Source: a virus
DNA: 35,712 nt
Virus record (IMG/VR): IMGVR_UViG_3300037882_000724
Location: 1-35,712 of that record
Strand: one strand, 5' to 3'
In this document: in pieces, positions 1-34,788 of the stretch
How positions within the stretch are numbered: position 1 is the stretch's first letter
How the letters are laid out: each line of letters opens with the position of its first letter
Made by a program: the position numbers and the translations under genes
The notes under the pieces: generated by a model
What the model saw: only the letters and a program-made list of their open reading frames with translations
Told to the model about the DNA's origin: nothing
The model's database searches: none

Positions 1-393
1 ATCGGTAAGGGTGGCGCAGGGCGGGTCGGGCCGAACAGCCCCTAGAGTTTCAAACGGAGTGCAAGGGACTACGGCGCGAAACTTACCCGACTTAACCGAC
101 AGCTTTCCGTTATCAAGTAACGTAATTGAAATTTGATCGGCACATTTATCTAGCGCTTTGATTAACGTGTTTGTATGTGGGCAGCACGTAAGCGCTTCAT
201 CAACATACAGACCAGCAGTTAACCCGCCATCAAACGCAGTCAGCGTACCATCGGCCAAACGGCAATGGGTGTGATAAACCTTAGAGCCTGGAAAATCATT
301 GTGTTGAGCAATAGAAATAAACTTCAAAGCTTCCAATAATGCGGAAGCTGTTTTGCTTTTCTCCGCCCTTGCGCGGGGCTTACGGGTTGCCAT
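1..393 (-). CDS. sliding-clamp-like (DnaN-like) protein, partial
   Basis: The reading frame opens at the ATG at 393 and stays open for 131 codons to the left edge, so the C-terminus lies outside the window. A good ribosome site (AAGGATAG) sits about 7 nt before the ATG. The residues read 'LIKALDKC', 'ISITLLDNGKLSVKSGKFR' and 'VVPCTPFE'. This resembles the first domain of bacterial beta clamps, where a helix is followed by strands ending in 'KSGKxRF'. A clamp would tether a polymerase to DNA, and the helicase and recombination genes upstream fit that role. The family call is from pattern memory only. It could instead be another phage protein with the same fold, and the missing two thirds would decide. 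Confidence 0.5.
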   Translation of the reverse strand, partial: MATRKPRARAEKSKTASALLEALKFISIAQHNDFPGSKVYHTHCRLADGTLTAFDGGLTAGLYVDEALTCCPHTNTLIKALDKCADQISITLLDNGKLSVKSGKFRAVVPCTPFETLGAVRPDPPCATLTD

Positions 394-405
394 TGAGTGC
401 TATCC

Positions 406-639
406 TTAAAACGGAATATCCATAATATGCCATTCACAACCGTTAACGATTACTTCCGGGGGTGGCATCGCTTGAAATCTGCGGCAACCTGTTGGCATAC
501 AGTTAGGGTCTTGACCTTCTGAGGGTTGCTGCCATTCTTCACAATTTAGGCAAGTTTGCCAAACTGCGGAGCCGGCTATTCTAATAATTCTACGTTGAAA
601 CTCTATACGATCTTTAGCGGACCTATTTGTAATATCCAT
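406..639 (-). CDS. small cysteine-containing phage protein, unknown function
   Basis: This 77-residue frame starts at ATG 639, which overlaps the helicase stop codon as TAATG, so translation is probably coupled. An in-frame ATG at 651 lies inside the helicase gene and is less likely. The protein has five cysteines spread over the middle and end ('TCLNC', 'NCMPTGC', 'NGCEW'). That spacing could bind a zinc ion, although no textbook zinc-finger pattern is complete. The family is not recognised. It lies between the helicase and the clamp-like gene in the same leftward operon, so a small replication accessory role is possible but only inferred. Confidence 0.7.
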   Translation of the reverse strand: MDITNRSAKDRIEFQRRIIRIAGSAVWQTCLNCEEWQQPSEGQDPNCMPTGCRRFQAMPPPEVIVNGCEWHIMDIPF

Positions 640-2342
640 TAGAATTCCCATTGTTTAATTTCAGGCCACTTTAAATTTACGTGAACCAAAATGTTTTTTG
701 GAACACGTAGTTCGCCCGTGCGTTGTAAAAATTCGTCGCATGTTTTGGGCGGTTCTGTCGGCGCGTGTTTCATCCACCATTCATGAGCTAGCCGGCGAGC
801 TTTGCCGGTATGCTCAAAGCAAAGATAATGGTTTATAGCTCGAATACCCATCAAATAAACTGCTTTGATACTGTCCGGGCTGACAACGCCACCGCCTTTG
901 TCTTTACCGCTATGTTTTTGATAAAGGACTGGCCTTAATATCGGCACTGTTTCTAGAATTGGTGTTTCTAGAACTTTCATCGGTGAGTCATGATATGCCG
1001 TACTTTCGACGTGCATTTTGAAACTAAATTCATTAGCACAATTACAGCAAAATCTAACGGAAGCATGATTGTATGCGCCGCAACCATCAAGATAATCAGG
1101 CTCATCGCGTTTTTTATATTCGTTATGTTTTAACTTTGGCCCATCGCAAATTTTAACAGGCGGCGGATCGCCTTTTTTCTGTCCTGGCTTGCGTGGGGTT
1201 ACTGGGTCGTCAATAGGGCCGTTATTTGCAATGTTGCCCACAAAATCAAGAGCTAGAGTGTTTGATTTAGGCGTACTTCTGAATTTCTGCCAATTTGGTA
1301 AAACGCGAGTACCGCGCCCTAATTTTTGAACGTGTTTCCCAGGGCTGCAAGTTGGTTGTAAATCTGCAATAAGGTCTATCTGCGGTTCATCATAGCCAGT
1401 CGTTAGCATGTTGGCGCCGACAATTGCCCAATATTCACCGGCCGAATAAGCCTCTAGACGTTCTTTGTTTTTGGCTTTACTCTTTGAATGAACAAACGTA
1501 GTCGGCGCACCTAACGAATTCAATATTTCGCTAATATGCTCGGCGTTCTTAATACCGGCCGCAAATACCATACATTTCTGACGATCGTAGCCAAACTCTA
1601 GAATCTCTTTGCAAGCCGCATACAAAATATCTTCGCGACTTTCTATCAAATCTTCCGCTTGCTTTTGGTTGTAATCTCCGCCTGTAATGCCTAATTCGCG
1701 AATACCTTCAAATTTGGTGCTAGTCGGCTTACCGATCAACGGGCACAAAAAACCTTCGCTAATCAATCGCTGGAAACTATCGTAATCGCAAAGGTTATAG
1801 GCAATATCAGAAAATAAACCGCCATCGGTAAGCATACCCATTTTTAGGCGAAATGGGGTAGCGGTAAACCCTATAACCTTGAGAAACGGATTTAGCGCCG
1901 TCAGAATGCGAATTACCGTTAAATATTGCGTGTCGTCATCGGCCCCTAGTAAATGAGCTTCGTCAATAAGCAATAAATCAATTCGGCCAAAAGCGTTATT
2001 GTTCTTTTCGAGAGTAGGGCAAACCGATTGAACGCCGCCGTAAATAATCGGCAGGCTTTTTTGCCTTTGCCCTAGTCCTGCACTATGGATACCTAGCGGA
2101 ACAGTCAACCACATCCTTTGAAGCTTTTCGGCGTTCTGCTCTATTAGCTTCCAAACGTGAGTTAGTAGCATTACCCTTTGTGTAGGGTAATACCTGAAAA
2201 CGTCAATCAAGAAATCCGCTATAACAATAGACTTGCCCGTTCCTGTGGGCATACAGACAAGCGGATTCCCCCTACCGCCATTCTCAAAGTAATTGAAAAT
2301 AGCGTTTTTTGCTTCTGTTTGATACCAATGGGGTTTAATCAT
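639..2342 (-). CDS. superfamily 2 DEAD/DEAH-box DNA helicase
   Basis: This 567-residue protein has the main SF2 helicase motifs in order. Walker A is 'CMPTGTGKS' (residues 30-38), motif II is 'LLIDEAH' (near 130), motif III-like is 'FTATPFR' (near 160), and motif VI is 'QKLGRGTR' (near 340). A cysteine cluster ('GCGAYN...FCCNCANEF', about 420-445) suggests an added zinc-binding segment. It should use ATP to remodel DNA, for example unwinding recombination intermediates or forks, as do phage UvsW- and RadD-like helicases. Its ATG overlaps the exonuclease stop by 8 nt (ATGATTAA), so the two are co-translated. The nuclease, SSB and Sak4-like neighbours place it in a recombination-replication module. 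Confidence 0.9.
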   Translation of the reverse strand: MIKPHWYQTEAKNAIFNYFENGGRGNPLVCMPTGTGKSIVIADFLIDVFRYYPTQRVMLLTHVWKLIEQNAEKLQRMWLTVPLGIHSAGLGQRQKSLPIIYGGVQSVCPTLEKNNNAFGRIDLLLIDEAHLLGADDDTQYLTVIRILTALNPFLKVIGFTATPFRLKMGMLTDGGLFSDIAYNLCDYDSFQRLISEGFLCPLIGKPTSTKFEGIRELGITGGDYNQKQAEDLIESREDILYAACKEILEFGYDRQKCMVFAAGIKNAEHISEILNSLGAPTTFVHSKSKAKNKERLEAYSAGEYWAIVGANMLTTGYDEPQIDLIADLQPTCSPGKHVQKLGRGTRVLPNWQKFRSTPKSNTLALDFVGNIANNGPIDDPVTPRKPGQKKGDPPPVKICDGPKLKHNEYKKRDEPDYLDGCGAYNHASVRFCCNCANEFSFKMHVESTAYHDSPMKVLETPILETVPILRPVLYQKHSGKDKGGGVVSPDSIKAVYLMGIRAINHYLCFEHTGKARRLAHEWWMKHAPTEPPKTCDEFLQRTGELRVPKNILVHVNLKWPEIKQWEF

Positions 2343-3273
2343 TACCTAGCGTTATCGATTGCCAGTTATCACAGCCTGCCGCGACAGCATCACGGGGAAT
2401 GATCGCGTTCCATTGTTCACAATAAAACTCACCGTTATCAACAGCGTTAGCCCGTACACAACTGCGGCAATTCTTTTCGGCAGGCTTTTTAAAATGGCAA
2501 ACGTCTTTGAATCGGCAAAGGCTTTTACATTCATAAAAGTTAGCATTTTCTGATAATCTAGGGGGCGGAGTTCTAGCGAAAATAATTTTTTCCGCTTTGA
2601 TTTCCATATTTTCAGCAAGTTTAAAATCTAGCTTTTCGACTTTTACGGCTAAATCATCATCGTTTTTATTTACGCAAAGATAAATTACATACTTAATACC
2701 GTAGCCGCGACCATAAACCGATTCTTGAATAAAGTGTTGCGGTTTACCTGTGGCTAATGGTTCGTTTTTGGCTTTGTTGAAACCTGCACCAGTCCCCGAA
2801 GTTTTGGAAGAAACTAAAACGGGTTCGTTTATTTTCCATGACTCCGGGAATCTAGCAATTCCGTCAAGACTTCCGCCGAAATGCCCGCCGCAGGTACGTT
2901 CTAGCCTAAATTGCTTACCCGTAGACTCATCGTGAGTCCAAACGGTAAATCCTAGACCCCTAAGCCATTTTGTATGTCTGGGTTCTTCCAAATGGCCGCG
3001 CTGCCAAAGCCTGCGCATTCGCCCTGACGCATTTTCTTTAGCCACCCAGCGGAAGCCATACCAAAGTTTACGGCTGCATTCATCGCCAATTACAGAAGCG
3101 CCTAAATGCCAACGAAAACCATCATCGTAGATTTCTGCCGTATGGTCTTCAATCGCCTTAGAAAGTCGTTCGGCTACAGCAAGCCTAGTATTTGCATTTT
3201 CAAGATTTGCCGTATCGTCTAATATTGATTCTTGTGTGCTGTCGGCAGGCTCGCCGGTTTCTTTTAGCATCAT
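2335..3273 (-). CDS. Cas4/RecB-like PD-(D/E)XK exonuclease with cysteine cluster
   Basis: I take ATG 3273 as the start because AGAGGA lies 9 nt before it. An upstream GTG (3324) and ATG (3303) have poor ribosome sites and would lengthen the overlap with the zinc-protein gene. The 312 residues show the Cas4/RecB layout: 'DECSRKLWY' (Cys66), 'RGHLEE' (93-98), 'GSLDG' (Asp137), 'VSSKTSG' (Lys157), then 'QESVYGRGYG'. A C-terminal group of cysteines (249, 253, 259, 269, 272) with Cys66 could hold an iron-sulfur cluster. The usual catalytic Glu two residues before the Lys is Ser here, which is odd. It probably resects DNA ends for the SSB and Sak4-like protein encoded upstream. Confidence 0.8.
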   Translation of the reverse strand: MMLKETGEPADSTQESILDDTANLENANTRLAVAERLSKAIEDHTAEIYDDGFRWHLGASVIGDECSRKLWYGFRWVAKENASGRMRRLWQRGHLEEPRHTKWLRGLGFTVWTHDESTGKQFRLERTCGGHFGGSLDGIARFPESWKINEPVLVSSKTSGTGAGFNKAKNEPLATGKPQHFIQESVYGRGYGIKYVIYLCVNKNDDDLAVKVEKLDFKLAENMEIKAEKIIFARTPPPRLSENANFYECKSLCRFKDVCHFKKPAEKNCRSCVRANAVDNGEFYCEQWNAIIPRDAVAAGCDNWQSITLGND

Positions 3274-3685
3274 CTTTGGCTTTCCTCTTTTGAAAATAGG
3301 CATACCCGTTCGATCTGTGGGCACGCATTAGTTCGATAGCTTGTTTTAGTTCGCTGTCTGTAAGTTCGCTTATATGACAATTAGAACTTTCTAGACGTAA
3401 TTCTTTAGCTATCCATCTATAAGCGTCGTCTCTACTTATATATTTTAATTGCCAAACTGGGTCTAGCAATTCATGTAGCTTAACTCGTCTACGTTTTGTT
3501 ATAGATGAAGCCATTAGCCCCATAGGGTTGTAAGTATTCGCATGGCATTGCACAGACGCCTTACAATGCCCACAGAAATACATATACGGCCAATCACCTT
3601 TTAACTCGCCATATAAAATATCATTCGATGCTAAAACTACATTCGGATTTTTACAACTATCACAAATTTTAGGCGGTTGTCTCAT
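3200..3685 (-). CDS. zinc-finger phage protein (DUF3268-like)
   Basis: The 161-residue protein begins with 'PPKICDSCKNPNVVLASN' and continues with 'FCGHCKASVQCH', a pair of CxxC knuckles likely to bind one zinc ion. The following 'NPMGLMASS', 'RRRVKLHELLDPVW' and 'RDDAYRWIAKEL' match the small DUF3268 family of phage zinc proteins as I remember it. No catalytic role is known for the family. The ATG overlaps the preceding stop as ATGA. The basic C-terminal tail overlaps the start of the exonuclease by 74 nt, which suggests coupled expression with the nuclease. One TCTGTGGGCA copy (minus strand) encodes part of the second knuckle. Confidence 0.75.
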   Translation of the reverse strand: MRQPPKICDSCKNPNVVLASNDILYGELKGDWPYMYFCGHCKASVQCHANTYNPMGLMASSITKRRRVKLHELLDPVWQLKYISRDDAYRWIAKELRLESSNCHISELTDSELKQAIELMRAHRSNGYAYFQKRKAKDDAKRNRRACRQHTRINIRRYGKS

Positions 3686-3923: not shown

Positions 3924-4607
3924 TTACTTCTGACCCCAAGCAGGCTTGCCGCCCGCCGCTGCGCCTTGCTGCCAGGATGCGGCGGGCGGATTCGCTGCGG
4001 GAGGAGGTGGGGTAGCGACTCCCCCGCCCTGCCATCCTGGGTTAGCGGCCTGTTGAGAGGCTGGCGATGCCCATTGCTGGGTTTGTGGCGCTGGTGTTGA
4101 CGCTTGAGGCTGATACTGTTGTGTTTGCTGTGGTTGCTGTTGCTGGCCACCTTGACCCGGCATCGAACCATCAATATTCAGAATCTTACGCACTTGCGTA
4201 AACGGCGTTACCGATTCACCAGCATCCTTTTTAGCTTGTTGGTCGGGGGTAAGCGGTTGCGGCTCAACATCGACGCAAAACGGCTTATTGTGAAGCGCTG
4301 CGGTTTCTTGAATCACAAATTGACCAGTTGCGTAGCAAAGGGCCGCCATTTGAGATTCTGCAATAGCTCTAACCTTTTCATCTTGGTGATAAAGGTTGAT
4401 ATACATTTGGCCGCTTGCGCCCTTTGCAGGTCCGTCGATAACTTCCAAATCAAAAACAACCATACCCCCTTGATTGCTCTTATTCGGCTTAATTTCCGAA
4501 GCTACAGCAACGACGGGTTGTTTACCGACTGGGAGCGATTTGTAACCGCCACCCTGATTAGTCGGGTCAAACTGCTGTGCGTTAAATTGACTTTGAAGCT
4601 GTGCCAT
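3924..4607 (-). CDS. DUF669-type single-stranded DNA-binding protein
   Basis: The 227-residue protein matches the DUF669 phage family: 'FDPTNQGG', 'LPVGKQPVVAV', 'KPNKSNQGGMVVFDLEVIDG' and 'LHNKPFCVDV' appear in the usual order over residues 12-125. The rest (about 145-227) is a Gln/Pro/Ala/Gly-rich disordered tail ending 'PAWGQK', as in many SSBs. Such proteins cover single-stranded DNA and cooperate with Sak4-type recombinases. That agrees with the Sak4-like ATPase gene two positions upstream. The start at ATG 4607 is preceded by AAGGA with 10-nt spacing, 2 nt after the previous stop. A terminator follows, so this gene may be made in greater amounts than the genes beyond it. Confidence 0.85.
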   Translation of the reverse strand: MAQLQSQFNAQQFDPTNQGGGYKSLPVGKQPVVAVASEIKPNKSNQGGMVVFDLEVIDGPAKGASGQMYINLYHQDEKVRAIAESQMAALCYATGQFVIQETAALHNKPFCVDVEPQPLTPDQQAKKDAGESVTPFTQVRKILNIDGSMPGQGGQQQQPQQTQQYQPQASTPAPQTQQWASPASQQAANPGWQGGGVATPPPPAANPPAASWQQGAAAGGKPAWGQK

Positions 4608-4609: not shown

Positions 4610-4936
4610 TTAGGCGTCCTTTTGGTTGGTGGTGGAATCAATATCTAACGATCGTTGTGCATCGTCAGCGGGAGGATTGTTAAGCGCAAGAATGTTATTT
4701 CCCAATTCGACAACATTCGCGGCAATAGAATCGCGCAATTCCTCTTGTGCTTTTGCCAAATTATAAACAACAGAAAACAGCGCCGTTAGAATAACGTGAA
4801 GCGCGCGACCTGCGAGCAATCGGGTAAACGCGTCGATCAAGAATTGAGCATGCAAGGTATCTGACTTTTCTTGATTTTCCTTAACTGCCGCGATTTCTTC
4901 AGGGGTGAGTTCGTCAGTTTTTGTTTCTTCGCTCAT
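4610..4936 (-). CDS. hypothetical phage protein with central hydrophobic helix
   Basis: The 108-residue protein has acidic ends and a hydrophobic centre (about residues 40-62, 'ALHVILTALFSVVYNLA') that may be a membrane segment or an amphipathic helix. Its ATG overlaps the stop of the Sak4-like ATPase as ATGA, and the SSB gene follows 2 nt later. It is therefore co-expressed with the recombination proteins. I do not recognise the family. Confidence 0.7.
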   Translation of the reverse strand: MSEETKTDELTPEEIAAVKENQEKSDTLHAQFLIDAFTRLLAGRALHVILTALFSVVYNLAKAQEELRDSIAANVVELGNNILALNNPPADDAQRSLDIDSTTNQKDA

Positions 4937-5613
4937 AGCATAGCCTTTGTAAAAATATCGGTAAGGTTTGGCGGCTCAAAAGTCGCAAGATTGCCCGACC
5001 GATCACGGGCAAGCAAATCGAACTGTTCGCTTGTGCAAAATGCTTTTTGCGGACCCATAACACCGGGGATATTGTGCAACCCCAAGTGCATAATAAGGTC
5101 GAAAAGGTGGGGGATTTTAACGTTTAAGTCATTACCCGGAAAGTAGGGTTTACGCTTTAGAACCCCGTTTTCCTCAATGCGCGTTTGCTTGCAAATCAAA
5201 TACATGTGCTTATTCGGTTGATAGAATAAGGCATTCATATATTCCATTACTTTGTTAGACATTTCCCCATATGCTTTTAGTCCGTGCGAATGCACCTTTA
5301 GCATGTGCTTTAGAACCACTTCAGCCATATGCGAAACCGAGTCAACACCTAGCGTATCGAATTGGTCAACTTCGCGCGAACTGAACCACCACTTGAAAAA
5401 TTCCTCAATTTGTGGGTACTCATACGCTTGCCATGTTGGCAAATTAGTAGCCTTAGACAGCGAACGCGCCCCAGGCTCACACAATAGGAGAATGGGCCTA
5501 GGCGCCGTCATAAATACGGGCGTCTTACCCGTACCAGGATCACCATAAGCAATAGACTTGACGCCTAACCGTGCGGCAATTTGGCTTGCGGGGCGTAAGT
5601 TACTGGCGTTCAT
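4933..5613 (-). CDS. Sak4-like RecA-fold ATPase (AAA_24), recombination protein
   Basis: The 226-residue protein has a clear Walker A 'GDPGTGKT' (residues 24-31) and a Walker B-like 'TLGVDSVSHM' (about 84-93). 'LICKQTR' and 'FDLIMHLGL' follow, as in phage AAA_24/Sak4 proteins. Known Sak4 proteins are reduced RecA/Rad51 relatives that promote strand annealing with their cognate SSB. The DUF669 SSB gene nearby fits. The start overlaps the previous gene by 14 nt, and the stop overlaps the next ATG. It should act on single-stranded ends produced by the Cas4-like exonuclease. Assignment as a general phage nucleotide-binding protein is safe, while the Sak4 role is inferred. Confidence 0.8.
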   Translation of the reverse strand: MNASNLRPASQIAARLGVKSIAYGDPGTGKTPVFMTAPRPILLLCEPGARSLSKATNLPTWQAYEYPQIEEFFKWWFSSREVDQFDTLGVDSVSHMAEVVLKHMLKVHSHGLKAYGEMSNKVMEYMNALFYQPNKHMYLICKQTRIEENGVLKRKPYFPGNDLNVKIPHLFDLIMHLGLHNIPGVMGPQKAFCTSEQFDLLARDRSGNLATFEPPNLTDIFTKAML

Positions 5614-6602: not shown

Positions 6603-7087
6603 TCGTGAATTTCCGCAAAATTAGACAATTGGGCCTTACGATAGTTTGGGCCTTTGACAATCTTACCATGTTCGTTAAAAACCGGCAAGCCATCGACGAA
6701 TTTACTGTAATTGCTTTCGTTGACTTCCGCAAGGGCGCCGAAAATGTTCATTTTGAACATATGAGCAACGCCAATTGCGGTAACGATTTGATCACAAAGG
6801 GAATCTAGCAATTCTACGCGGTCAAGACCCATAAAATCAACATCTAGCCCAATAGATTTAGATTTGTAATGATTAGCATAATCGCTCAAAATGGCTTCTA
6901 GTTTTGGCATTGCAAGCGATTCCGCCATTTCGGCCACTTCTTCCAAATGGCAGCCTAATTGCACAGCTCTGTTTTTATCTGTGGGCACCGGAACGGCAAG
7001 CTTAAACCAATTATCAATTTTTTCGACGGTGAACGCTCGATAATCTGTTTCCGTATCCTCTACGGCGATCACAATTTTTTGATCCAT
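6599..7087 (-). CDS. MazG-like NTP pyrophosphohydrolase
   Basis: The 162-residue all-alpha protein carries the metal-binding pattern of MazG/PRA-PH enzymes: 'HLEEVAEMAES' (Glu49, Glu50, Glu53) and 'ELLDSLCDQ' (Glu92, Asp95). The ending 'GKIVKGPNYRKAQL' is common in phage members. These enzymes hydrolyse (d)NTPs or ppGpp-like nucleotides to monophosphates plus pyrophosphate, and in phages may tune nucleotide pools or host stress signalling. It is the first gene of the leftward operon. A TTGACA/TACAGT promoter is centred about 45 nt upstream, and AAAGGG precedes the ATG. The substrate cannot be deduced here. Confidence 0.75.
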   Translation of the reverse strand: MDQKIVIAVEDTETDYRAFTVEKIDNWFKLAVPVPTDKNRAVQLGCHLEEVAEMAESLAMPKLEAILSDYANHYKSKSIGLDVDFMGLDRVELLDSLCDQIVTAIGVAHMFKMNIFGALAEVNESNYSKFVDGLPVFNEHGKIVKGPNYRKAQLSNFAEIHE

Positions 7088-7189: not shown

Positions 7190-7384
7190 ATGGACTTAGA
7201 CCGACTCGCCGCAAGGTTACGCACTGCACACAGTAGGTATTCTTTACGTCAGCTTGCCAAGTGGTGTAAAGGTAAGGTTTCTCACGAATACCTTCGCACG
7301 ATCATTACAAACGGTTGCCCTGATACGATTTCTGTCGGCCGTTACAACTCTATCGATCAAGGTTTAGCCGACAATGGCTTTTGA
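7190..7384 (+). CDS. small helix-turn-helix DNA-binding protein (Cro-like size)
   Basis: The 64-residue protein starts at ATG 7190. Its segment 'SLRQLAKWCKGKVSHEYLR' fits a helix-turn-helix, with a first helix, turn at Gly/Lys and recognition helix. No ribosome site precedes the ATG, and the promoter -10 ends only 7 nt upstream, so the message is probably leaderless as for lambda cI from PRM. It overlaps the primase start by 11 nt. Placement at a divergent promoter with a dyad suggests an autoregulator of the early switch. No repressor family is recognised by name. Confidence 0.65.
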   Translation: MDLDRLAARLRTAHSRYSLRQLAKWCKGKVSHEYLRTIITNGCPDTISVGRYNSIDQGLADNGF

Positions 7385-9767
7385 ACGCATTCCCGCAGAA
7401 ATGCGGGCGTTTAAATCTTGGTGCGTTTGGCGGTTGGAAAGAAATCTAGACGGAAAGCTAACTAAGATTCCGTACAGCCCGATTAGTGGCTACAAGATTG
7501 ATCCGACAGCGCCGCATCATTGGGTAACGTTTGAATCCGCAGTAGCGGCGGCGGAGTCACGCCCAGAATGGTGGAGCGGTATTGGCTTTGTTCTTTCCGA
7601 AGCCGACCCATACACATTTATTGACTTAGACGAACCGAAAAACCCAGACGGATCGCCGTTAGAGTCTGACGAATACGCGCGACGTTTTGACCATCAAAAT
7701 AACATTTTTAATGCCTTTCCTTCTTATTCGGAATTGTCACCTTCGGGCAAAGGTTTACACATTATTTTGCGTGGCGAAGTTCCCGCAGGTCGCAAACGAA
7801 ACAATGTAGAGATTTATTCGTCAAAACGTTTTATGACGATGACGGGGAATGTTTACACAAATTCGCCTATCAATTATTACAACAACGAATTAAAATCCCT
7901 ATGGGATGAAATGGCACCGGCTAATCAGTCATCAGAACTGTATTACGCTGGCCTTGAACGTGAAGTAAACACTGACGAAAAGGTAATTCTTTATGCGCAA
8001 AGTGCTAGCAACGGTGAGCTATTTCACGATCTGTATTTTAATGGGGATTGGGCTAAACATAATTACCCTAGTCAATCCGAAGCTGATTTTGCGCTTGTTG
8101 ATATTATCGCTTTTTATTCAAGAAATAGAGCACAAGTTAACCGCATATTTCTCAACTCACGACTAGGGCAGCGCGAGAAATCGCGGGCGCCTTATCGGAT
8201 TAAGAAAATGCTAGATCGTTGTTTCGACAATTTGCCAGCACCGATTGACATTCAAAGTATAGCCAATAATATTTTGGCAAGTCAAATGGAAAAAGATAGA
8301 CAAAAGCAAATTGCCAAAATTAATTCTGCGGTTGCTATTGACCATGAAAAAGATTATTTAGAATGCGTTGAACCGCTGTTTTTTGATGAGTCTAAGGAAT
8401 CGCCCTACAACCCACCACCCGGCCTAATGGGTGACATTGCGCGATTCGTGTTTGCTCAATCCTATAGACCAATCCCGGAAGTCTCACTAGCGGCAGCAAT
8501 CGGGCTTATGGCGGGCGTTTGTGGACGCGCATTTAATACGCCTACGGGCTCAGGCTTGAATCAATACGTGCTGGTTTTAGCCCCTACCGGATGCGGTAAA
8601 GAAGAAATGGCTAAAGGTATTCAAAAACTTTTTAACGAAGTCGGCAAAACTAATATTACTTCGCGTGATTTTCTCGGCCCTTCTGACATTTCTAGCCCGC
8701 AGGCTTTAACTAAATACTTAGGTAAAAAATCAGCGTCTTTTGTCTCAATTATTGGCGAATTCGGAATTTATTTCAAAAACATGGCGACGGCAAACGCTAG
8801 CCCACACATGCAAGGATTGAGCCGCGCGCTTTTAGATTTTTACGGCAAGTCTGGAAATAAACAATCTGTGGGCAGTATGATTTATTCCGATTCGGAAAAA
8901 AATACAGCCGTTGTTAATGCACCAGCAATGACCATTCTAGCCGAGTCGGTGCCTGAAAACTTTTATTTGAATTTGAACGAATCAATGATTCAGTCAGGTT
9001 TATTGCCACGTTTTACAATTATTGACTACAAAGGGGATAGAGTTAGGCCGAATAAAGCATGTGCTTCTGTAATGCCATCCGACAGCCTTATTCAAAGTTT
9101 GAATTCTCTTATGTCGCAAGCTGCGTTGTTGAATAGTCAAAATATGGTTATCAATGTGCAGCAAACCGAAGAAGGGCGGCAATTGCTTGATAAGTTTGAA
9201 GAATATGCGGACAATAAATCGTTAGGTGCTAATGAAACTGTTAGATCACTTTGGACTCGCGCTTATCTTAAATCGCTTCGCCTTGCTTGTTTGGTGGCGG
9301 TAGGTGTTAATTCTTTTCAGCCTACTATTGATAAAGCGGCGGCAGAATGGGCCATCCGAATAATTCGTACTGATGTTGAGGCGATGTTGCGTAAATTTGA
9401 ATCTGGCGAAGTTGGCGAAAATACGCATGAAAATGAACAGATTCGCACAGTACTTAGACTTGTTAATAAATACGTCAATGACGCATGGGAAAAAGTCACT
9501 AAGACTGTCGGTGCGGCAAAACTTAAGCCTTTGCATGATGCAAAAATTGTTCCTTATACTTTCTTACAAAAATCCACCTCTAGCGTAGGATTGTTTAAGA
9601 ATGACAAAATAGGCGCAACAGCAGCGCTAAAGCGCACTCTTAACGTGCTTTGTGAACGTGGCGACCTTCAAGCAGTACCACGCGCCGAATTGGCTAAGTT
9701 CGGCACAGGTTCAGCAGCCTATGCAATCACTAACATTGATGCAATTTTGAACTTGACAAAAAATTGA
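7374..9767 (+). CDS. primase-polymerase/helicase fusion (NrS-1-like primase plus DUF3987-like ATPase)
   Basis: This is the largest gene in the window (797 aa). Residues 1-165 look like an archaeo-eukaryotic primase as in NrS-1-type phage polymerases: 'FIDLDEP' supplies Asp84 and Asp86, 'SPSGKGLHI' has His129, and 'NNVEIYSSKRFMTMTG' follows. A helix-bundle segment ('SQSEADFALVDIIAFY') joins it to a DUF3987-like ATPase with Walker A 'APTGCGKE' (about 403-410). The last ~110 residues ('PYTFLQKSTSSVG') recur in the minus-strand gene at 14404-14979. It should prime, and perhaps extend, DNA and unwind the origin. No separate polymerase is visible in the window. Confidence 0.85.
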   Translation: MAFERIPAEMRAFKSWCVWRLERNLDGKLTKIPYSPISGYKIDPTAPHHWVTFESAVAAAESRPEWWSGIGFVLSEADPYTFIDLDEPKNPDGSPLESDEYARRFDHQNNIFNAFPSYSELSPSGKGLHIILRGEVPAGRKRNNVEIYSSKRFMTMTGNVYTNSPINYYNNELKSLWDEMAPANQSSELYYAGLEREVNTDEKVILYAQSASNGELFHDLYFNGDWAKHNYPSQSEADFALVDIIAFYSRNRAQVNRIFLNSRLGQREKSRAPYRIKKMLDRCFDNLPAPIDIQSIANNILASQMEKDRQKQIAKINSAVAIDHEKDYLECVEPLFFDESKESPYNPPPGLMGDIARFVFAQSYRPIPEVSLAAAIGLMAGVCGRAFNTPTGSGLNQYVLVLAPTGCGKEEMAKGIQKLFNEVGKTNITSRDFLGPSDISSPQALTKYLGKKSASFVSIIGEFGIYFKNMATANASPHMQGLSRALLDFYGKSGNKQSVGSMIYSDSEKNTAVVNAPAMTILAESVPENFYLNLNESMIQSGLLPRFTIIDYKGDRVRPNKACASVMPSDSLIQSLNSLMSQAALLNSQNMVINVQQTEEGRQLLDKFEEYADNKSLGANETVRSLWTRAYLKSLRLACLVAVGVNSFQPTIDKAAAEWAIRIIRTDVEAMLRKFESGEVGENTHENEQIRTVLRLVNKYVNDAWEKVTKTVGAAKLKPLHDAKIVPYTFLQKSTSSVGLFKNDKIGATAALKRTLNVLCERGDLQAVPRAELAKFGTGSAAYAITNIDAILNLTKN

Positions 9768-11784: not shown

Positions 11785-11944
11785 GCCGCGTGCTAAACCA
11801 ATTTGCGGAGGTTTTAAACTTTGGTATGATGACGGTACAAAAACATACGGTAGATATTATGTAGGCCGAACTTTGACCGAAGCTTATCGTAATTGGGAAT
11901 GGGATTATAAACAAAATGCCCACAAAAGAAATATCCAAAGCTGA
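11753..11944 (+). CDS. small hypothetical protein (63 aa)
   Basis: This basic, aromatic protein contains 'CGGFKLWYDDGTKTYGRYY' and 'TLTEAYRNWEWDYKQ', a beta-hairpin-then-helix pattern. It starts within the winged-helix gene (32-nt overlap), with AAGGAATT upstream of the ATG. No family is known to me. Confidence 0.6.
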   Translation: MDSQIQLKPVKPRAKPICGGFKLWYDDGTKTYGRYYVGRTLTEAYRNWEWDYKQNAHKRNIQS

Positions 11945-20741: not shown

Positions 20742-20962
20742 TGCTATTTTGTGTCGCGAATGTTGTGTACTGCAATCCTGAGCCGGTGCGAATCGGTTCT
20801 AAATTCCTACCGTCACATGCTGCCCACAATGTTGACGGCGTTTATTGGGAACGCTTACCGGCCCTTAGCGAGTCGGAAGAAATTTTGCAAAAGGGATTGT
20901 TGCGTAAGACAATCGTGCCTAGAATCGCGTATGAAATCGAAGTGCTGGCATTTTTCAAATGA
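20741..20962 (+). CDS. small hypothetical protein (73 aa)
   Basis: ATG 20741 is coupled to the acidic ORF. The protein reads 'LFCVANVVYCNPEPVRIGSK', then 'ESEEILQKGLLRKTIVPRIA'. A TGTGGGCA copy (minus strand) lies inside it. No function is recognised. It overlaps the next start. Confidence 0.6.
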   Translation: MLFCVANVVYCNPEPVRIGSKFLPSHAAHNVDGVYWERLPALSESEEILQKGLLRKTIVPRIAYEIEVLAFFK

Positions 20963-22812: not shown

Positions 22813-22909
22813 GCGCCTGGGCTGGTCTAGGGTCGCCCGGCTCACGAAAGTTGTTTCTGTGGGCATCTAGGCCCCTACAATGCCGCCATTCCTTTGGAGC
22901 GTTTACCCC

Positions 22910-25705: not shown

Positions 25706-26592
25706 TGGCACACTACGGACCATCTTTAGTAACCGGCAAAGCCGTTTACGGGACAACAGAGCTAGGCATTTTAGGTTCTGTGGTCCGTGCTAATACCGCC
25801 GTAGGTACTAACGGCGCTGGTATTCTTTATAACGATTGGGATAACAGCAGCGACGATAGTAGGCTATTCAGAGCTTTGGTGATTAGCGGGGCACCTTCCG
25901 GCGCTTTCTTTTATGAAGACGGAAGTTTTTATATACCATCGGGAACGCCAAACGGTGCGTATTCGATAGCTTACGATCTTTATATAAACGGTGCGCTACA
26001 AGGCTCTACAACAGCCCAAGTGAATATAGGCGCCGCCCCTTCGTCATTCACAGGCGCTATTCAACTTGACGACGATAGCGTTACTGGCTTTTTTACAAGC
26101 GGCCAATCATCTAATTTTGTGGGCAATGTCACATTAGATGACGATTCGATAACAGGTTCTTTCTATTCGGCAGTTGGTAGCGTATTTGTAGGAAACATTC
26201 AACTTGACGACGATAGGATTAGCGGAAGGTTTTTCAGCTCTTCGTTACCAAACCCGTTAGCGCCGGTTCGCATTTATAAAATGCCGGCCGATGCTGCTAA
26301 TATCGCTCCTAATATCCCAACTTATTACAAAGATCGCAACGAATTGTTAGATTATGGGTTTGATGCTACTGACGTTTTAGCTCAAATACCAAACGACACG
26401 GTTTCTAATTTTGATATTCGCGCTAATGTTGGTTTGGAAATTTTAGCGATTGGATTATCAGAAACTAATTTATACGGCGTGTTGCTGGGCGGTGGCTATA
26501 ATCAAGCTTTGGGGCTTGTCACCTGTCGCTTAACGATGGCTTCGGGCCGAGTTATTGAATCTAGTATTTATGTAAAAATAGATAGCAAATAA
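25705..26592 (+). CDS. tail protein with three LDDD repeats
   Basis: The 295-residue protein contains three tandem ~24-residue units: 'FTGAIQLDDDSVTGFFTS', 'FVGNVTLDDDSITGSFYS' and 'FVGNIQLDDDRISGRFFSS' (residues 113-185). Triple Asp turns between beta-strands look like calcium-binding or beta-solenoid repeats. The C-terminal half ends with 'GRVIESSIYVKIDSK'. The position in the tail block suggests a virion appendage. No family is recognised. Confidence 0.65.
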   Translation: MAHYGPSLVTGKAVYGTTELGILGSVVRANTAVGTNGAGILYNDWDNSSDDSRLFRALVISGAPSGAFFYEDGSFYIPSGTPNGAYSIAYDLYINGALQGSTTAQVNIGAAPSSFTGAIQLDDDSVTGFFTSGQSSNFVGNVTLDDDSITGSFYSAVGSVFVGNIQLDDDRISGRFFSSSLPNPLAPVRIYKMPADAANIAPNIPTYYKDRNELLDYGFDATDVLAQIPNDTVSNFDIRANVGLEILAIGLSETNLYGVLLGGGYNQALGLVTCRLTMASGRVIESSIYVKIDSK

Positions 26593-27198: not shown

Positions 27199-27745
27199 GC
27201 CAGAACTTCAATCCGTTGTTGAATTGGCGGCAGGCAGATTGCCGTTTGACATTATTGTTGTAGAAGGTAAGCGCTCTGCCGAACGGCAAGGTCAGTTATA
27301 TGCGCAAGGCCGAACCGCCCCCGGCAAAATCGTCACATGGACGTTAAACAGCAAGCACATTACGGGCGACGCTGTTGATTTGGCACCAATAGAAAAAGGC
27401 GCCATTCTGTGGGCAGATACAGCTAAATTTCATGCTATCGCAGGTGCTATGTTTACAGCCGCTAGTGAATTAGGCTTTGGGATTCGTTGGGGTAAGGATT
27501 GGGACCAAGACGGCATATTCGGCGAAAAAGGCGAAACTGACAGCCCGCATTTTGAATTAACAGGTGTAAATAAAGCATGGGAATCGAAATCATCATCGGT
27601 ATTATCGTCACCACAATCGCCGGCATCTTCGGCGCCAAAGCCTACGGAAAGTCCAAAGGCAGAAGCGAAGCAAATGCAACCCGAGATAAAGCCGACAATA
27701 TTAGGCAGGTTGACGCAGCTATTAAAACCGCTGACGCGCAAGTAA
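27158..27745 (+). CDS. M15-family endolysin (L-alanyl-D-glutamate peptidase-like)
   Basis: The 195-residue protein carries the VanY/M15 zinc-peptidase motifs 'SKHITGDAVDL' (His67, Asp74 region) and 'DSPHFEL' (His131), with Arg39 ('GKRSAERQGQL') in the usual place. It cleaves the peptide stem of peptidoglycan. Residues 141-195 form a Ser/Pro/Lys-rich tail outside the family fold. That tail is encoded where the Rz gene overlaps in another frame, and may exist partly because of this overlap. No signal peptide is seen, so it needs the holin. Confidence 0.85.
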   Translation: MLNETSKSRLRSVKPELQSVVELAAGRLPFDIIVVEGKRSAERQGQLYAQGRTAPGKIVTWTLNSKHITGDAVDLAPIEKGAILWADTAKFHAIAGAMFTAASELGFGIRWGKDWDQDGIFGEKGETDSPHFELTGVNKAWESKSSSVLSSPQSPASSAPKPTESPKAEAKQMQPEIKPTILGRLTQLLKPLTRK

Positions 27746-28417: not shown

Positions 28418-29919
28418 TTGAAGAGTTAGACAGAACTAAAGATTATCAAGACGATGAATCTTTAGAAGCGCTGGTAACTGAAATATTCCCGGTACATTTA
28501 CCGTTATTGCAGCCTGCGCGTTATAAATGCGAGTATGGCGGTCGCGGTAGCGCAAAAACTAGAACTTTCGTAGCTATATTATTGAACAATGTTCAATACT
28601 ATGGTTGGCGGTTAGTATGCTTTCGAGAAATAATGAAATCGTTAGACGATTCTGTATATCAAGAATTTGTAGACGAAATATATAGAACGCCGGGGCGTGA
28701 AAAGTTTTTCAGTATTACAAAAGGAAGCATTATTTGTAATGTTACTGGTGGAAGAATTAAATTTGACGGATTGTTTAGAAATCAACAAAAGCTCAAAGGT
28801 TACGCAGGTTTCGATGCTGCGTGGGTTGAGGAAGCCGAAAACGTCACTGCCGAAAGCTGGAAATTCTTAATTCCCACTTTACGTAAAAACGGCTCTGAAA
28901 TTTGGGTTTCTTATAACCCCGACGATCCTTTATCGGCAACCCATACGATGTTTGTAACTGGTAGAACTTTCCCAGATTACACCCAAGTCAAAGACCCTAT
29001 CACAAAGGAATTAGTATTTAATCCCGACGGTTCGCCAAAGATGCGGCGTTACTGTGTCGTTATCAAAGTTAACTATACAGAAAATCCTAGATTCCCCGAA
29101 GAATTGAGGATTGACATGGAATTGATGAAAGAAAACGACTATGAATTATATTTGCATGTTTACGAAGGTGAGCCGGTAAGTAACAGCGATTTGGCTGTAA
29201 TTAAACCTATTTGGGTTTCCGCTGCTGTAGATGCCCACATAAAGCTAGGATTGTCGGCTAGCGGCTCATGGGATGCCGGTTTTGATGTGGCCGACGAAGG
29301 CAAGGACAAAAACGCTTTTGTCTGGCATCACGGCATTGTCGTTAAAGGCGCTGTTGAATGGAAAGATGATGACCCCAATACAGCAGCTAGGCGTGTATTC
29401 CACGAATCGCTAGATATGGGAATGGATACGGTGACGTATGATAATATTGGCGTTGGTGCTGGTGCTAAAGGTGCTATCCGTGAAGAAAAGCGGGCATTGA
29501 GTATTAAGCGTAAATGCCCGCAGTATAGAGGTTTTACCGCTAACGAGTCTCCGCTAAACCCTGAAGCTGATTACGCACCGGGTAAAAAGAATATTGATAT
29601 GTTCCGGGATTTAAAAGCTCAGGCGTGGTGGTTGGTTAGAGATAGATTCAAAAACACTTATGATGCTATTAACGGTAAACCATACGATCCCGAAAAGATA
29701 ATCAGCTTCGATTCAGAGTCGGAATTTTTACCGCCTGAAACTTTACGCAAGTTAATGGCCGAACTGTCGCAGCCGCGCAGAGATTTGATAAACGGCAAGG
29801 TGTTTATAGAATCTAAAAAGGACATGCGCAAGCGTGGTGTAATGTCTCCAAATCTGGCAGATGGCTTAATCATGTCATATGCGCCTGAAACTGGTTTCAA
29901 ATTAGAAAACTTAATATGA
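28414..29919 (+). CDS. terL: terminase large subunit (PBSX-like ATPase-nuclease)
   Basis: The 501-residue protein has Walker A 'GGRGSAKT' (42-49), Walker B with catalytic glutamate 'AAWVEEAENV' (135-144) and coupling motif 'SYNPDDP' (166-172). The nuclease motifs are 'GFDVADEGKDKN' (Asp291, Asp294), 'TYDNIGVGAG' (Asp343) and 'NLADGLIMSYA' near the C-terminus. It cuts concatemeric phage DNA and pumps it into the prohead. Length and order match PBSX-type terminases. The stop overlaps the portal ATG. Confidence 0.95.
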   Translation: MIEELDRTKDYQDDESLEALVTEIFPVHLPLLQPARYKCEYGGRGSAKTRTFVAILLNNVQYYGWRLVCFREIMKSLDDSVYQEFVDEIYRTPGREKFFSITKGSIICNVTGGRIKFDGLFRNQQKLKGYAGFDAAWVEEAENVTAESWKFLIPTLRKNGSEIWVSYNPDDPLSATHTMFVTGRTFPDYTQVKDPITKELVFNPDGSPKMRRYCVVIKVNYTENPRFPEELRIDMELMKENDYELYLHVYEGEPVSNSDLAVIKPIWVSAAVDAHIKLGLSASGSWDAGFDVADEGKDKNAFVWHHGIVVKGAVEWKDDDPNTAARRVFHESLDMGMDTVTYDNIGVGAGAKGAIREEKRALSIKRKCPQYRGFTANESPLNPEADYAPGKKNIDMFRDLKAQAWWLVRDRFKNTYDAINGKPYDPEKIISFDSESEFLPPETLRKLMAELSQPRRDLINGKVFIESKKDMRKRGVMSPNLADGLIMSYAPETGFKLENLI

Positions 29920-31313
29920 AGATGCGAAAAATCAAAGCCGTTAAAATCGACTCAGGTTATTTAAATGCTTTAGTCCCTGCGCAAGTTCGCGGGCGTATGA
30001 GCAACTATAGTTCTGAAATGATGGCGGGAACTTCGTTATTAAACGAAGCGGTGCTAGAAGCTTCGTATATTCATAACGATATTTTTAGAAATATCTGCGA
30101 TGTACCAGCGGAAGAAATGACACGGGCCGGTTTTAAGTTAGACGGTATTTCAGAAGAGCAAGAACAAGCCATTAAGTCTAAAATCGAAGAATTAGACGCA
30201 ATGGAAAGATTTTCCGAGGCTATCAAATGGCGTTTCGCTTACGGTGGCGGGCTAATGCTTTTGGGATTAAACGACGGCGGTTCTTTCGAAGAAGAGTTGA
30301 GGGAAGATTCTTTGACGGATATCGAATTCATAAAGGTATACGATAGGTTTGAATGCCGCCCAGAAAGATACTATGAAACTCAAGATAAAAATTTCGGCAA
30401 AGTTGAAATTTGGCAAATAAACCCGCGCGACGGAAATCAACAATTTTTTGTTCACGAGTCCCGCGTTTTAGTATTTGACGGGCAAACTGTGCCTAATATT
30501 GTTCGCAAATCTAATGATGGTTGGGGTGCGTCGAATATTCAAACTTGTTTTAAGAAAGTAATCAGGCTCGATACTGCTTATAAATACTCACTAGATTTGT
30601 TGCAAAGAATGCAACAAGCAGTCCATAAAATACCCAATCTTTCGCAAGAATTGGCAGGGCCTACCGGCGAAGCTAATGTTATGAAACGTGTCAATGTTGT
30701 TGATACGGTAAGGGGTATTTACAATACTATCATTCTAGATGCTCAAGAAGAATACGATATTACTTCTTTTTCACTGACTGGCGTTAAAGAAATTGTAACT
30801 TTATTAGCGGAAGCGGTTTCCTCAGCTTCTAGAATTCCGGTTTTTATTCTTATTGGTAAAACCGAAGGCGGTTTAAATAGTAACGGCGAATCGTCTAAAG
30901 AAGGTTGGTATACACAAATCGGAGCTTGGCAAAATCAACAATTGCGCAAGCCTTTAGATCGTCTGATTAGTTTGATTCGGCGTGTGGAAAGCGGCGGCTC
31001 TGACGATGGTGGTAATTACACTTTAGAGTTTAACCCGCTTTATACAATGACTGATGCCCAAAAGGCCGAGGTTGATTTAAAGAAAGAACAAAAACAGAAA
31101 GCTAAGGTTGATGGTGTGGTAGCTGCTATTAACGCTGGGCTTTTGGACGAGAATGAAGGTCGTGAAGTTATTCGGGAAGACTACGGATTAAAAGGCGATG
31201 GGCCAGAACCCGAAGCTGAAGAGCCAAACCCGATAGTTCTTAACCCAGGTCAAAAATTAGTGAGCCCAGTCCCCGGCGCCAACAACCCCGCTAATTCTGT
31301 GGGCAGTAAATGA
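29916..31313 (+). CDS. portal protein (DUF1073-type)
   Basis: The 465-residue protein sits directly after terL and shows portal-type features of the DUF1073/HI1409 family: 'YIHNDIFRNICDVPAEEMTR', 'EAIKWRFAYGGGLMLLGL' and 'IGKTEGGLNSNGESSKEGWY'. The portal is the dodecameric ring at one capsid vertex through which DNA passes. The last ~65 residues are Pro/Glu-rich ('GPEPEAEEPNPIVL') and probably disordered. A TCTGTGGGCA copy encodes the residues just before the stop. Confidence 0.9.
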   Translation: MKMRKIKAVKIDSGYLNALVPAQVRGRMSNYSSEMMAGTSLLNEAVLEASYIHNDIFRNICDVPAEEMTRAGFKLDGISEEQEQAIKSKIEELDAMERFSEAIKWRFAYGGGLMLLGLNDGGSFEEELREDSLTDIEFIKVYDRFECRPERYYETQDKNFGKVEIWQINPRDGNQQFFVHESRVLVFDGQTVPNIVRKSNDGWGASNIQTCFKKVIRLDTAYKYSLDLLQRMQQAVHKIPNLSQELAGPTGEANVMKRVNVVDTVRGIYNTIILDAQEEYDITSFSLTGVKEIVTLLAEAVSSASRIPVFILIGKTEGGLNSNGESSKEGWYTQIGAWQNQQLRKPLDRLISLIRRVESGGSDDGGNYTLEFNPLYTMTDAQKAEVDLKKEQKQKAKVDGVVAAINAGLLDENEGREVIREDYGLKGDGPEPEAEEPNPIVLNPGQKLVSPVPGANNPANSVGSK

Positions 31314-32125: not shown

Positions 32126-32163
32126 CCATAGCCTGCCCACAAGTAGGGTATATACTGCCGCCC

Positions 32164-33712: not shown

Positions 33713-33727
33713 TTTCAAGGGGATATT

Positions 33728-34729
33728 ATGCCTACCAAACAAGAACGTTTCGACCAAGATTTAAACACTATCACTTTTCTCGTTCAAGCGGGGCAAAGCG
33801 ATTTGCGAATGGACGTTGAGCGTGAAGACGCTAACGAAACCGTCTATTTTGCTCGTCAGCTTGAGTATGTCCGTAGCCGGATTTACGATGTTAAGCGCCC
33901 AAAGCCTTCGGCACTTGAGCGTTTCCCTATCGATTCGGAAGCCCCCGAATGGGCCGAAACGATTACTTACACGATGTATGACGCTACCGGCATCGCTAAG
34001 ATTATCGCATCGTATGCGGATGATTTGCCGATGGTCGGTGTTAGCGGGCAGCAATTCTCTAGCCCCGTTCGTTCTCTTGGTATTGCTTACGGTTGGTCTA
34101 CCGCCGAAATTCGAGCAGCTTCGCAAGCACGAATCAATTTAAAAACCGAAAAGGCATTGATGGCCCGTAAGGGTAACGACTTTAAGGTTAACCAAATTGC
34201 TTGGTTTGGCGATACTGTTTCGGGTCTGCCGGGTTTCCTGACTAACGCTAATATTCCGGCTTATACGGTGCCCGCTGATGGTACCGGGTCGTCTAAGCTT
34301 TGGTCTACCAAAACCGCCGATCAAATCATTCGCGATATGAACGGCATTGTTAACCAAGTGAAGACGCAAACCGTTGGCGTTCACAAGGCTACTGAACTTT
34401 GGTTGGCGATTGCTAATGCTACTCATATCGGTTCTGTTCCGCGCTCTAGCACTAGTGACACAACCATTCGCGAATTCTTTACGAAGAATAACCCAGGCGT
34501 GACGATTCACGAAGTCCCCGAATTGGCTACTGTTCCGGTTCTGTCGAATCTTAACGTCATGGTTGCTATTGAAAACAACCTTGAAAACCTTGAACTTATC
34601 TTGCCGATGGCTTTCCGCGAATATCCGCCGCAAGTCAACAACCTTTCGTGGAAGGTTCCCGCCGAATCGCGTATCGGTGGTGTCGTGATTCGCTATCCGC
34701 TGGCCATGGCTATCGGCACCGGAATTTAA
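33728..34729 (+). CDS. major capsid protein (DUF2184-type)
   Basis: The 333-residue protein has the DUF2184 pattern: 'RSRIYDVKRPKPSALERFP', 'ITYTMYDATGIAKIIASYAD', 'YGWSTAEIRAASQARINL', 'GDTVSGLPGFLTNANIP' and 'RIGGVVIRYPLAMAI' at the end. It follows AAGGGGATATT and precedes a terminator, as expected for the most abundant virion protein. Codons here are visibly more GC-ending than in the early genes, consistent with high expression. Confidence 0.9.
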   Translation: MPTKQERFDQDLNTITFLVQAGQSDLRMDVEREDANETVYFARQLEYVRSRIYDVKRPKPSALERFPIDSEAPEWAETITYTMYDATGIAKIIASYADDLPMVGVSGQQFSSPVRSLGIAYGWSTAEIRAASQARINLKTEKALMARKGNDFKVNQIAWFGDTVSGLPGFLTNANIPAYTVPADGTGSSKLWSTKTADQIIRDMNGIVNQVKTQTVGVHKATELWLAIANATHIGSVPRSSTSDTTIREFFTKNNPGVTIHEVPELATVPVLSNLNVMVAIENNLENLELILPMAFREYPPQVNNLSWKVPAESRIGGVVIRYPLAMAIGTGI

Positions 34730-34738
34730 TGTGGCAAG

Positions 34739-34788
34739 CCCTGACAGTTGCTCATATTCTGTGGGCAAATTGTCAGGGTTATTTTTTG
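34739..34788 (+). terminator. terminator after the major capsid gene
   Basis: CCCTGACAGTT pairs with AATTGTCAGGG (one G-U) around a 17-nt loop that contains TCTGTGGG, then TTATTTTTT. It should lower expression of downstream head genes relative to the capsid gene. Confidence 0.75.

Follow-up and report, generated by a model that had tools for sequence, protein, structure and literature searches.

The replication module and its repeated octamer

The stretch of DNA analysed here, referred to below as the window, is a single IMG/VR virus record of 35,712 bases (IMGVR_UViG_3300037882_000724). Its left part comprises a replication module that encodes an SF2 helicase, a Cas4-type exonuclease, a single-strand DNA binding protein (SSB), a Sak4-like annealing ATPase and a primase-polymerase (PrimPol; Table 1). 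The octamer TGTGGGCA recurs throughout the window on both strands. As discussed below, these copies may constitute a genome-wide grid of priming sites for the phage's own PrimPol, a reading to which we assign a probability of about 85% and in which the binding and priming steps are inferred.

Table 1 Positions of the TGTGGGCA copies and of the replication genes in the window.
Feature	Position	Strand	Remarks
SF2 helicase	639..2342	-	Replication module member
Cas4-domain exonuclease	2335..3324	-	phrog_1990
SSB	3924..4607	-	phrog_6015
Sak4-like annealing ATPase	4933..5613	-	phrog_124
PrimPol fused to MCM-like AAA+ helicase	7374..9767	+	797 residues; phrog_3022, E 2e-215; proposed reader of the sites
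Helix-bundle domain (HBD) match	8073..8168	+	PrimPol residues 234-265; PF22763, E 9e-6
TGTGGGCA site	176..183	+	
TGTGGGCA site	1235..1242	-	
TGTGGGCA site	2244..2251	+	
TGTGGGCA site	3316..3323	+	TC-preceded
TGTGGGCA site	3567..3574	-	TC-preceded
TGTGGGCA site	6980..6987	+	TC-preceded
TGTGGGCA site	8867..8874	+	TC-preceded; within PrimPol gene
TGTGGGCA site	11917..11924	-	Intergenic
TGTGGGCA site	14361..14368	-	Intergenic
TGTGGGCA site	15702..15709	+	TC-preceded
TGTGGGCA site	16197..16204	+	TC-preceded; intergenic
TGTGGGCA site	20821..20828	-	Intergenic by this ORF set
TGTGGGCA site	22858..22865	+	TC-preceded; intergenic
TGTGGGCA site	26118..26125	+	
TGTGGGCA site	27408..27415	+	TC-preceded
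TGTGGGCA site	29232..29239	-	Antisense in terminase gene
TGTGGGCA site	31298..31305	+	TC-preceded
TGTGGGCA site	32134..32141	-	Intergenic
TGTGGGCA site	34760..34767	+	TC-preceded; intergenic

A previous sequence-only reading of the window had reported about 19 copies of the octamer against a random expectation of about one. All 19 were found exactly where that reading had placed them, 12 on the plus strand and 7 on the minus strand. Dinucleotide shuffles of the window (n = 100) contain a mean of 0.88 copies with a maximum of 5, and the third-order Markov model, a check that had been proposed at the time, expects only 0.97; under this model TGTGGGCA is the top over-represented 8-mer of the window. 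A maximal-order Markov model predicts 16.5 copies because its 7-mer counts derive from the same copies of the octamer. AGTGGGCA and GGTGGGCA have 0 copies where about 16 are expected by the Markov calculation, and avoidance of these words is not claimed since the motif itself inflates the expectation. The extension to TCTGTGGGCA that had been attributed to ten copies was counted in 10 of the 19, nine on the plus strand and one on the minus strand.

By the set of open reading frames (ORFs) used in this analysis, 12 copies lie within ORFs and 7 are intergenic. The former occur in sense and antisense orientation and in all three frames, where at least two frames had been claimed. The three intergenic copies named earlier (16197, 22858 and 34760) stand, and those at 11917, 14361, 20821 and 32134 are added to them; the copy at 20821 sits in a TTG-started ORF of 158 residues that was not counted as a gene. 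The absence of copies from a G+C-rich cassette, to which attention had been drawn, is uninformative because a density of one site per 1.9 kb predicts about 0.5 copies in 0.8 kb.

The octamer in relatives and in named phages

A terminase search of the viral_contigs collection returned 24 loci on 23 contigs, and 17 contigs were searched for TGTGGGCA. Six relatives with 64-77% terminase identity contain 43, 33, 31, 10, 7 and 7 copies in 56, 41, 53, 27, 27 and 9 kb, respectively, the two 27-kb relatives (G005 and G006) appearing to be overlapping near-copies. Retention of the motif by relatives had been put forward as a check, and in the three largest of these contigs the reversed pattern occurs 0, 0 and 1 times. 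Eleven more distant terminase relatives have 0-2 copies of TGTGGGCA. A terminase search of the genome_contigs collection yielded no relative.

Among named phages with a PrimPol match, eight carry TGTGGGCA itself: Xanthomonas Pfeifenkraut (18 copies), Pseudomonas C1 (20), Burkholderia KL1 (18), Rhodobacter RcThunderbird (17), Sphingomonas Eidolon (24), Achromobacter phiAxp-1 (14), Kaya (17) and Acinetobacter Loki (13, of which 12 are AATGTGGGCA, with 0.1 expected). Fewer than one copy is expected wherever an expectation is given, and in each of the eight the word or an overlapping one is the most over-represented k-mer. A tblastn comparison found no matches to the terminase, portal or capsid of the window in these eight phages.

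In a second group of ten phages, with PrimPols 26-32% identical to that of the window, the word becomes TGTGGTTA (Vid5, 48 copies; PSTCR7, 39; GottfriedDienst, 45; CAjan, 47; Pa-V, 43) or TGTGGTCA (Yut1, 36; BUCT548, 41; JG012, 35; Vibrio CA8, 55; ChristophMerian, 34), where 1.6-3.6 copies are expected. Altogether, TGTGGGCA, TGTGGTTA, TGTGGTCA or an overlapping word is the top k-mer in 18 (26-46% identity) of the 21 named phages whose PrimPol match spans at least 600 residues. BP63 (PrimPol identity 22%) has 32 copies of TTGTGGGT, and BcepGomr, with a PrimPol match of 163 residues, has 13 copies of TGTGGCTA and 14 of TGTGGTCA.

The spelling of the word is not set by PrimPol identity alone, as Loki retains TGTGGGCA with a PrimPol that is 31% identical. 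Nor does the host explain it, since phages of one host species differ in their words. The Pseudomonas aeruginosa phages C1, JG012 and Pa-V (the last an 'unverified' record) carry TGTGGGCA, TGTGGTCA and TGTGGTTA, respectively, and the coliphages CAjan and ChristophMerian carry TGTGGTTA and TGTGGTCA. E. coli K-12 is the recorded host of CAjan, GottfriedDienst and ChristophMerian.

A tree of 28 PrimPol proteins, from which C7 was left out, places all phages with the word ending in GCA together (support 90) and those with words ending in TTA and TCA together (support 97), while NrS-1, A2 and Carvaje form a third part (support 99). The words require three changes over the 22 labelled rows, a number that was not compared with shuffled labels and that comes from a tree with several long branches. 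A simple loop code in the HBD was also considered. The correspondence of the loop SNE with TTA, suggested by ten named phages, is refuted by IMG/VR loci that combine SNE with TCA, for example L210. Loops of the type NRx were seen in GGC phages and SNx in GTC/GTT phages; these were not counted, and L231, L233 and L235 are exceptions.

PrimPol loci in metagenomes

The first PrimPol alignment search gave at least 80 IMG/VR loci, of which the 72 of at least 9 kb were taken and 8 shorter ones left out; three of the 72 are parts of the terminase relatives G002, G004 and G006. Among the matches listed, TGTGGGCA reaches p<0.001 in 51 of the 72 loci and is the top 8-mer overall in 32. A search with a second PrimPol alignment gave 69 loci; 66 of them were taken, and without those shorter than 9 kb 64 were examined. 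The best of the 16 TGTGGNNA words passes at p<10^-3.5 in 54 of these 64, the best word ending in TCA in 37 loci, TTA in 12, GCA in 4 and CTA in 1.

Overall, a TGTGGNNA array is present in 107 of 136 IMG/VR PrimPol loci of at least 9 kb, whereas 16 other cores, eight scrambled and eight arbitrary, pass in 0-6 of the 136 (both counts among the matches listed). L123, L149 and L166 were left out of this test as parts of G004, G002 and G006, and the 136 loci are not independent, as some duplicate or nearly duplicate one another or a named phage. Control loci chosen as terminase relatives pass in 0 of 13 cases for TGTGG and in one for TTGGG; these are partial genomes, six of which (L015-L019 and L022; L021 too if counted) have no PrimPol within the stretch.

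Footprint, spacing and conservation of the sites

The surroundings of the octamer were compared at 708 TGTGGGCA sites from 86 records, sites with identical 30-base surroundings having been left out. The flanks carry 0.90 bits over positions -8 to -1 and 0.23 bits over +1 to +8. At positions -1 to -4 A+T is high and G is scarce, positions -5 to -8 are 60-66% G+C with A at 0.11-0.12, and position -9 is neutral (0.004 bits). The earlier description of the upstream bases as usually T-rich is therefore only roughly right. Because a primer would be copied from template lying 5' of the site, the 5'-sided flank may be the trace of a primer of 8-9 nucleotides that starts weakly and ends strongly. Within the word, one-mismatch variants pooled over 11 phages with the GCA spelling indicate that the last two bases are tolerant of some changes, 5 of 6 variants being enriched 2-5 fold, and variants changed in the first six bases show no clear enrichment (at most 1.6 fold).

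The base directly 5' of the word is lineage-specific. It is C at 11 of the 19 window sites and at 10/15, 13/19 and 9/13 sites in L010-L012, A at 13/13 sites in Loki and 18/24 in Eidolon, and T at 12/20 sites in C1 and 13/17 in RcThunderbird.

The sites are evenly spaced along each strand. In 23 phages, 42 of 46 strands are less variable in spacing than the random median, and 26 of the 46 are evener at p<0.05 as compared with 10 of 340 control 8-mers from the same genomes; the strands are not independent, as some phages are closely related. The mean per-strand interval over the 46 strands ranges from 2.0 to 9.9 kb. For the window, the sites pooled over both strands give p = 0.012. The strand order also alternates: one relative shows 35 switches out of 42, and pooling 14 records gives 221 switches against 158 by permutation. 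A rotation control that keeps the spacing of each strand gives 209 switches (standard deviation 6, p = 0.03 versus 221). Alternation was thus rejected as a separate signal, since it mostly follows from the even spacing of each strand separately.

Exact conservation of aligned sites exceeds a G+C-matched background at p<0.05 in 13 of 15 directed comparisons, reciprocal pairs not being independent. At 72.7% DNA identity, 15 of 28 sites are kept where 9% are expected; other comparisons gave 9 of 9 (22% expected) and 42 of 43 (69% expected), and 4 of 6 sites of the window are kept in each of two relatives. Unconserved sites often carry several base differences, which suggests that sites are also gained and lost.

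The PrimPol and related priming systems

The window PrimPol displays the three AEP motifs, IDLD (motif I, DxD), SPSGKGLH (motif II, SxxGxGxH) and VEIY (motif III), which align with those of NrS-1. It matches the NrS-1 primase in the PDB with E values of 3e-19 (single sequence) and 7e-36 (profile), and the DNA primase 7ola with 1e-25 and 2e-50, respectively. An AlphaFold2 model calculated from 53 sequences has a pLDDT of 87.8 and a pTM of 0.56. The six best Foldseek matches of this model are NrS-1 N300 (E 7e-14 to 5e-13, probability 1.00), and MCM helicases come next. In the model the C-terminal half of the PrimPol resembles MCM helicases, so that the protein would combine a primase and an MCM-like helicase in one chain.

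In pRN1 the priming site is bound by the HBD, a domain that NrS-1 requires for its primase activity (PMC8718748). In the window PrimPol, the match to profile PF22763 follows the catalytic domain, scores 25.9 bits, below the gathering score of 27.9, and covers profile positions 1-33 of 64; all ten aligned PrimPol members match the HBD at E<0.01, with a best value of 6e-10.

NrS-1 PrimPol recognises TTTGGTTA, uses GTGG even better, starts mainly at the first upstream base and has been described as the phage's own replicative polymerase (PMC8718748). Two copies of the 8-nucleotide site are reported in the middle of the NrS-1 genome (PMC7102993). As to similarities, the PrimPol and its HBD are homologous to those of the window, the word TGTGGTTA of CAjan, GottfriedDienst, Vid5, PSTCR7 and Pa-V is one base off TTTGGTTA, and all four TGTGG(GC/TT/TC/CT)A words contain GTGG. 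In contrast to the array phages, the NrS-1 genome has TTTGGTTA once and TGTGGTTA four times, without a genome-wide array, and only about 278 residues match the window PrimPol (tblastn). Directly after the NrS-1 PrimPol gene there is an iteron-like cluster (L110, 17061-17445) with AAGTGTAAC 11 times on both strands. TTTGGTTA (17198, minus) and TGTGGTTA (17210, minus; 17438, plus) lie in or beside it, and the known NrS-1 priming site may consequently be part of an origin.

The primase of phage T7 is of the DnaG type. Its proposed (G/T)2GTC sites reportedly amount to 26 candidates or 14 clusters that are about 1-6 kb apart and fit Okazaki fragments (PMC12839067). The site density is similar to that of the array described here, whereas the T7 site is short, draws further information from the 3' flank and includes no 8-base word. 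The ORF904 primase of pRN1 uses a GTG site bound by an HBD and makes a primer of about 8 nucleotides that starts outside the motif (PMC8718748). The primer length resembles the 8-base footprint seen here, and the Foldseek hits of the window model include a pRN1 primase entry, 9aam (rank 42, E 1.7e-4); unlike the octamer, the pRN1 site is a trinucleotide, resides on a plasmid and goes with a zinc finger. The AEP-type replicase GP55 of lactococcal phage 1706 prefers the template word CCAAC, and in the portion of the source at hand it differs from the present case in its word, in being less strict, in starting inside the motif and in having no HBD, with no genome-wide array reported there (PMC12205980). 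A search of the open-access literature, with subscription papers outside it, found no report of octamer arrays of this kind.

The array and the genes of the module

PrimPol is the best single predictor of the array that was found. The other module members seem neither needed nor enough, because phiAxp-1 and Eidolon have arrays and Moraxella Mcat27 has none. By tblastn, phiAxp-1 (14 copies) has no homologue of the Cas4-exonuclease or SSB, and Eidolon (24 copies) has no Sak4 homologue, although an 'ATPase' is annotated at that place. Mcat27 has homologues of the helicase, exonuclease, SSB and Sak4 without a PrimPol match and without an array (best p 10^-2.4). Pseudoalteromonas C7 has homologues of the helicase, exonuclease and SSB and no array; its primase has other motifs and aligns without an HBD.

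The sequence-only reading had offered several roles for the octamer, of which the primase start site is supported by these data. A Chi-like recombination or exonuclease control site was another. Chi sites are asymmetric octamers present in many copies on both strands and tied to RecBCD-type nucleases. By analogy, the octamer could regulate the phage Cas4-type exonuclease and Sak4, or shield DNA ends from host RecBCD/AddAB. The asymmetric, conserved word with dozens of copies on both strands and the recombination genes adjoining PrimPol fit this role. However, the array tracks PrimPol rather than a nuclease: the gene contents of phiAxp-1, Eidolon and Mcat27 speak against a Chi-like function, as does C7 with its exonuclease, its different PrimPol and its lack of an array. 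An 8-base 5' footprint is unexpected for such a site, and a host Chi is contradicted by words that differ within one host species. We therefore consider a Chi-like role improbable.

Marginally less probable still is a loading or pausing site for the SF2 helicase, SSB, family B polymerase or clamp instead of PrimPol. The helicase accompanies the array in every named array phage, yet Mcat27 and C7 have helicase homologues, albeit distant ones (27-29% identity), without an array, and it is NrS-1 PrimPol that has a closely matching sequence specificity. To our knowledge, no sequence specificity has been described for SF2 helicases, SSBs, family B polymerases or clamps.

Site-specific nicks in virion DNA occur in T5 and in phage tf, and nicks or packaging/condensation sites would account for words that are genome-wide, on both strands and in alternating order. 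The rotation control attributes most of the alternation to per-strand spacing, and the first eight named array phages share no terminase, portal or capsid homology with the window by tblastn, so that this explanation is very unlikely. Equally remote is a host-derived signal (uptake sequence or restriction/modification) or chance with codon bias: comparable words do occur in some bacterial genomes, but this one is common to phages of Pseudomonas, Xanthomonas, Acinetobacter, Burkholderia, Rhodobacter, Sphingomonas and Achromobacter, the variety of words among phages of a single host species argues against host-binding and anti-restriction roles, and chance and codon bias are rejected on the basis of the shuffles, the third-order Markov expectation, the reversed-pattern control, the other cores, and the presence of copies on both strands, in three frames and between genes.

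A proposed grid of priming sites

In the favoured reading, TGTGGGCA would be the sequence that the phage's own PrimPol recognises on the template. When the strand with 5'-TGTGGGCA-3' becomes single-stranded, the HBD would bind the TGTGG core, and the catalytic domain would begin primer synthesis at the site's 5' edge, copying about 8 template bases that lie 5' of it. The primer would then be handed to the phage family B polymerase and clamp. These two proteins are annotated in complete relatives such as C1 and KL1; neither was seen in the window contig, which ends within the module. A plus-strand site would prime the leftward-growing strand and a minus-strand site the rightward-growing strand. 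Selection would keep sites a few kilobases apart along either strand, leaving no long stretch without a start point, and the word would shift as the specificity of the enzyme shifts.

The counts, the association with PrimPol, the even spacing on each strand, the conservation and the mainly 5'-sided footprint are observed; binding, priming, primer length and hand-over are the inferred parts of this interpretation. Several observations weigh against it. PrimPol is not sufficient for an array, because an N-terminal PrimPol match occurs without one in five phages: Lactobacillus A2, Carvaje and NrS-1 (277-312 residues), and Sasha and IME1365, which were compared through an N-terminal query only and were fetched as controls before being grouped here. 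Among the matches listed, 29 of the 136 PrimPol loci fail the array test, and phage lambda (L114-L116), a control without PrimPol, just passes the best-of-16 threshold with 10 copies of TGTGGTGA (10^-3.9). The array of RHph_Y17 (PrimPol 24%) is weak. Microcystis Me-ZS1, which carries the whole module including a full-length PrimPol match (37%), has 13 copies of TGTGGACA against 2.3, and other words rank higher. PrimPol was seen in only three of the six array-bearing close relatives (G002, G004 and G006); the other three are fragments, and G003 stops near the expected PrimPol position. All 19 named phages whose array consists of a TGTGG(GC/TT/TC/CT)A word also have an SF2 helicase homologue.

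The remaining points concern finer features. The N300 match of the model has a root-mean-square deviation of 13-14 Å and TM values of 0.45-0.49 by target length, and the two proteins thus match domain by domain and not in arrangement. Small, significant 3' biases are present at +1 and +7 to +10 of TGTGGGCA, and the 5' footprint is weaker for TTA (0.58 versus 0.40 bits, 209 sites) and TCA (0.43 versus 0.20, 201 sites). Taken singly, the window strands give p values of 0.10 and 0.12 for spacing. The conservation comparison of C1 to Kaya gives p = 0.07, and that of C1 to Pfeifenkraut 0 of 2 sites kept.

Most likely, the octamer is the genome-wide priming signal of an NrS-1-type PrimPol. Signals of this kind are known; what sets the present one apart is its length, its density, its even spacing along both strands and its change together with the enzyme. 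A bolder and rather doubtful extension is that a large, so far unreported phage group writes its priming map as an evolving octamer (TGTGG, then GC, TT, TC or CT, then A), the HBD and the sites having co-evolved. Each strand would be primed everywhere, because both strands carry evenly spaced sites throughout, and replication might therefore do without fixed leading and lagging strands, proceeding as a branching, displacement-type amplification.

Primase start points in vivo are seldom known, and here candidates can be read from the sequence in about 100 phage records. If the priming grid is real, the specificity of many uncharacterised PrimPols would be predicted, and the phages would provide natural enzyme-site pairs for studying how the HBD reads DNA. 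In that case a primase would also seem able to force a regularly spaced word of 8 bases upon an entire genome. DNA amplification is one use of PrimPols, for example of TthPrimPol (PMC5141293), and known long recognition words could serve PrimPol-based methods of this kind.

Other features

Other strong repeated words (L102-L104, L117-L119, L277-L279) were seen in phages with a PrimPol match, namely AATTCTTGA-like words in Carvaje, CGAGCGGA and CCTGTAGC in Sasha and TTATGAACA in Me-ZS1. In the window, an ORF of 191 residues (14404-14979, minus) resembles only the C-terminal part of the PrimPol (phrog_3022 positions 678-759) and has short matches in G002, G004 and RcThunderbird; it is perhaps a stand-alone partner or a remnant. 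Directly after the PrimPol gene, a G+C-rich stretch (9775-10600) holds two short ORFs unmatched in the relatives compared, the G+C content being 0.61 at 10001-11000 versus about 0.44. Four tRNA genes (Arg-TCT, Met-CAT, Ser-TGA and Leu-TAA) are clustered at 5795-6132 on the minus strand, and short stretches of the tRNA-Leu gene are 87-95% identical to DNA of Klebsiella, Escherichia, Serratia and Aeromonas phages, some of it annotated as tRNA-Leu.

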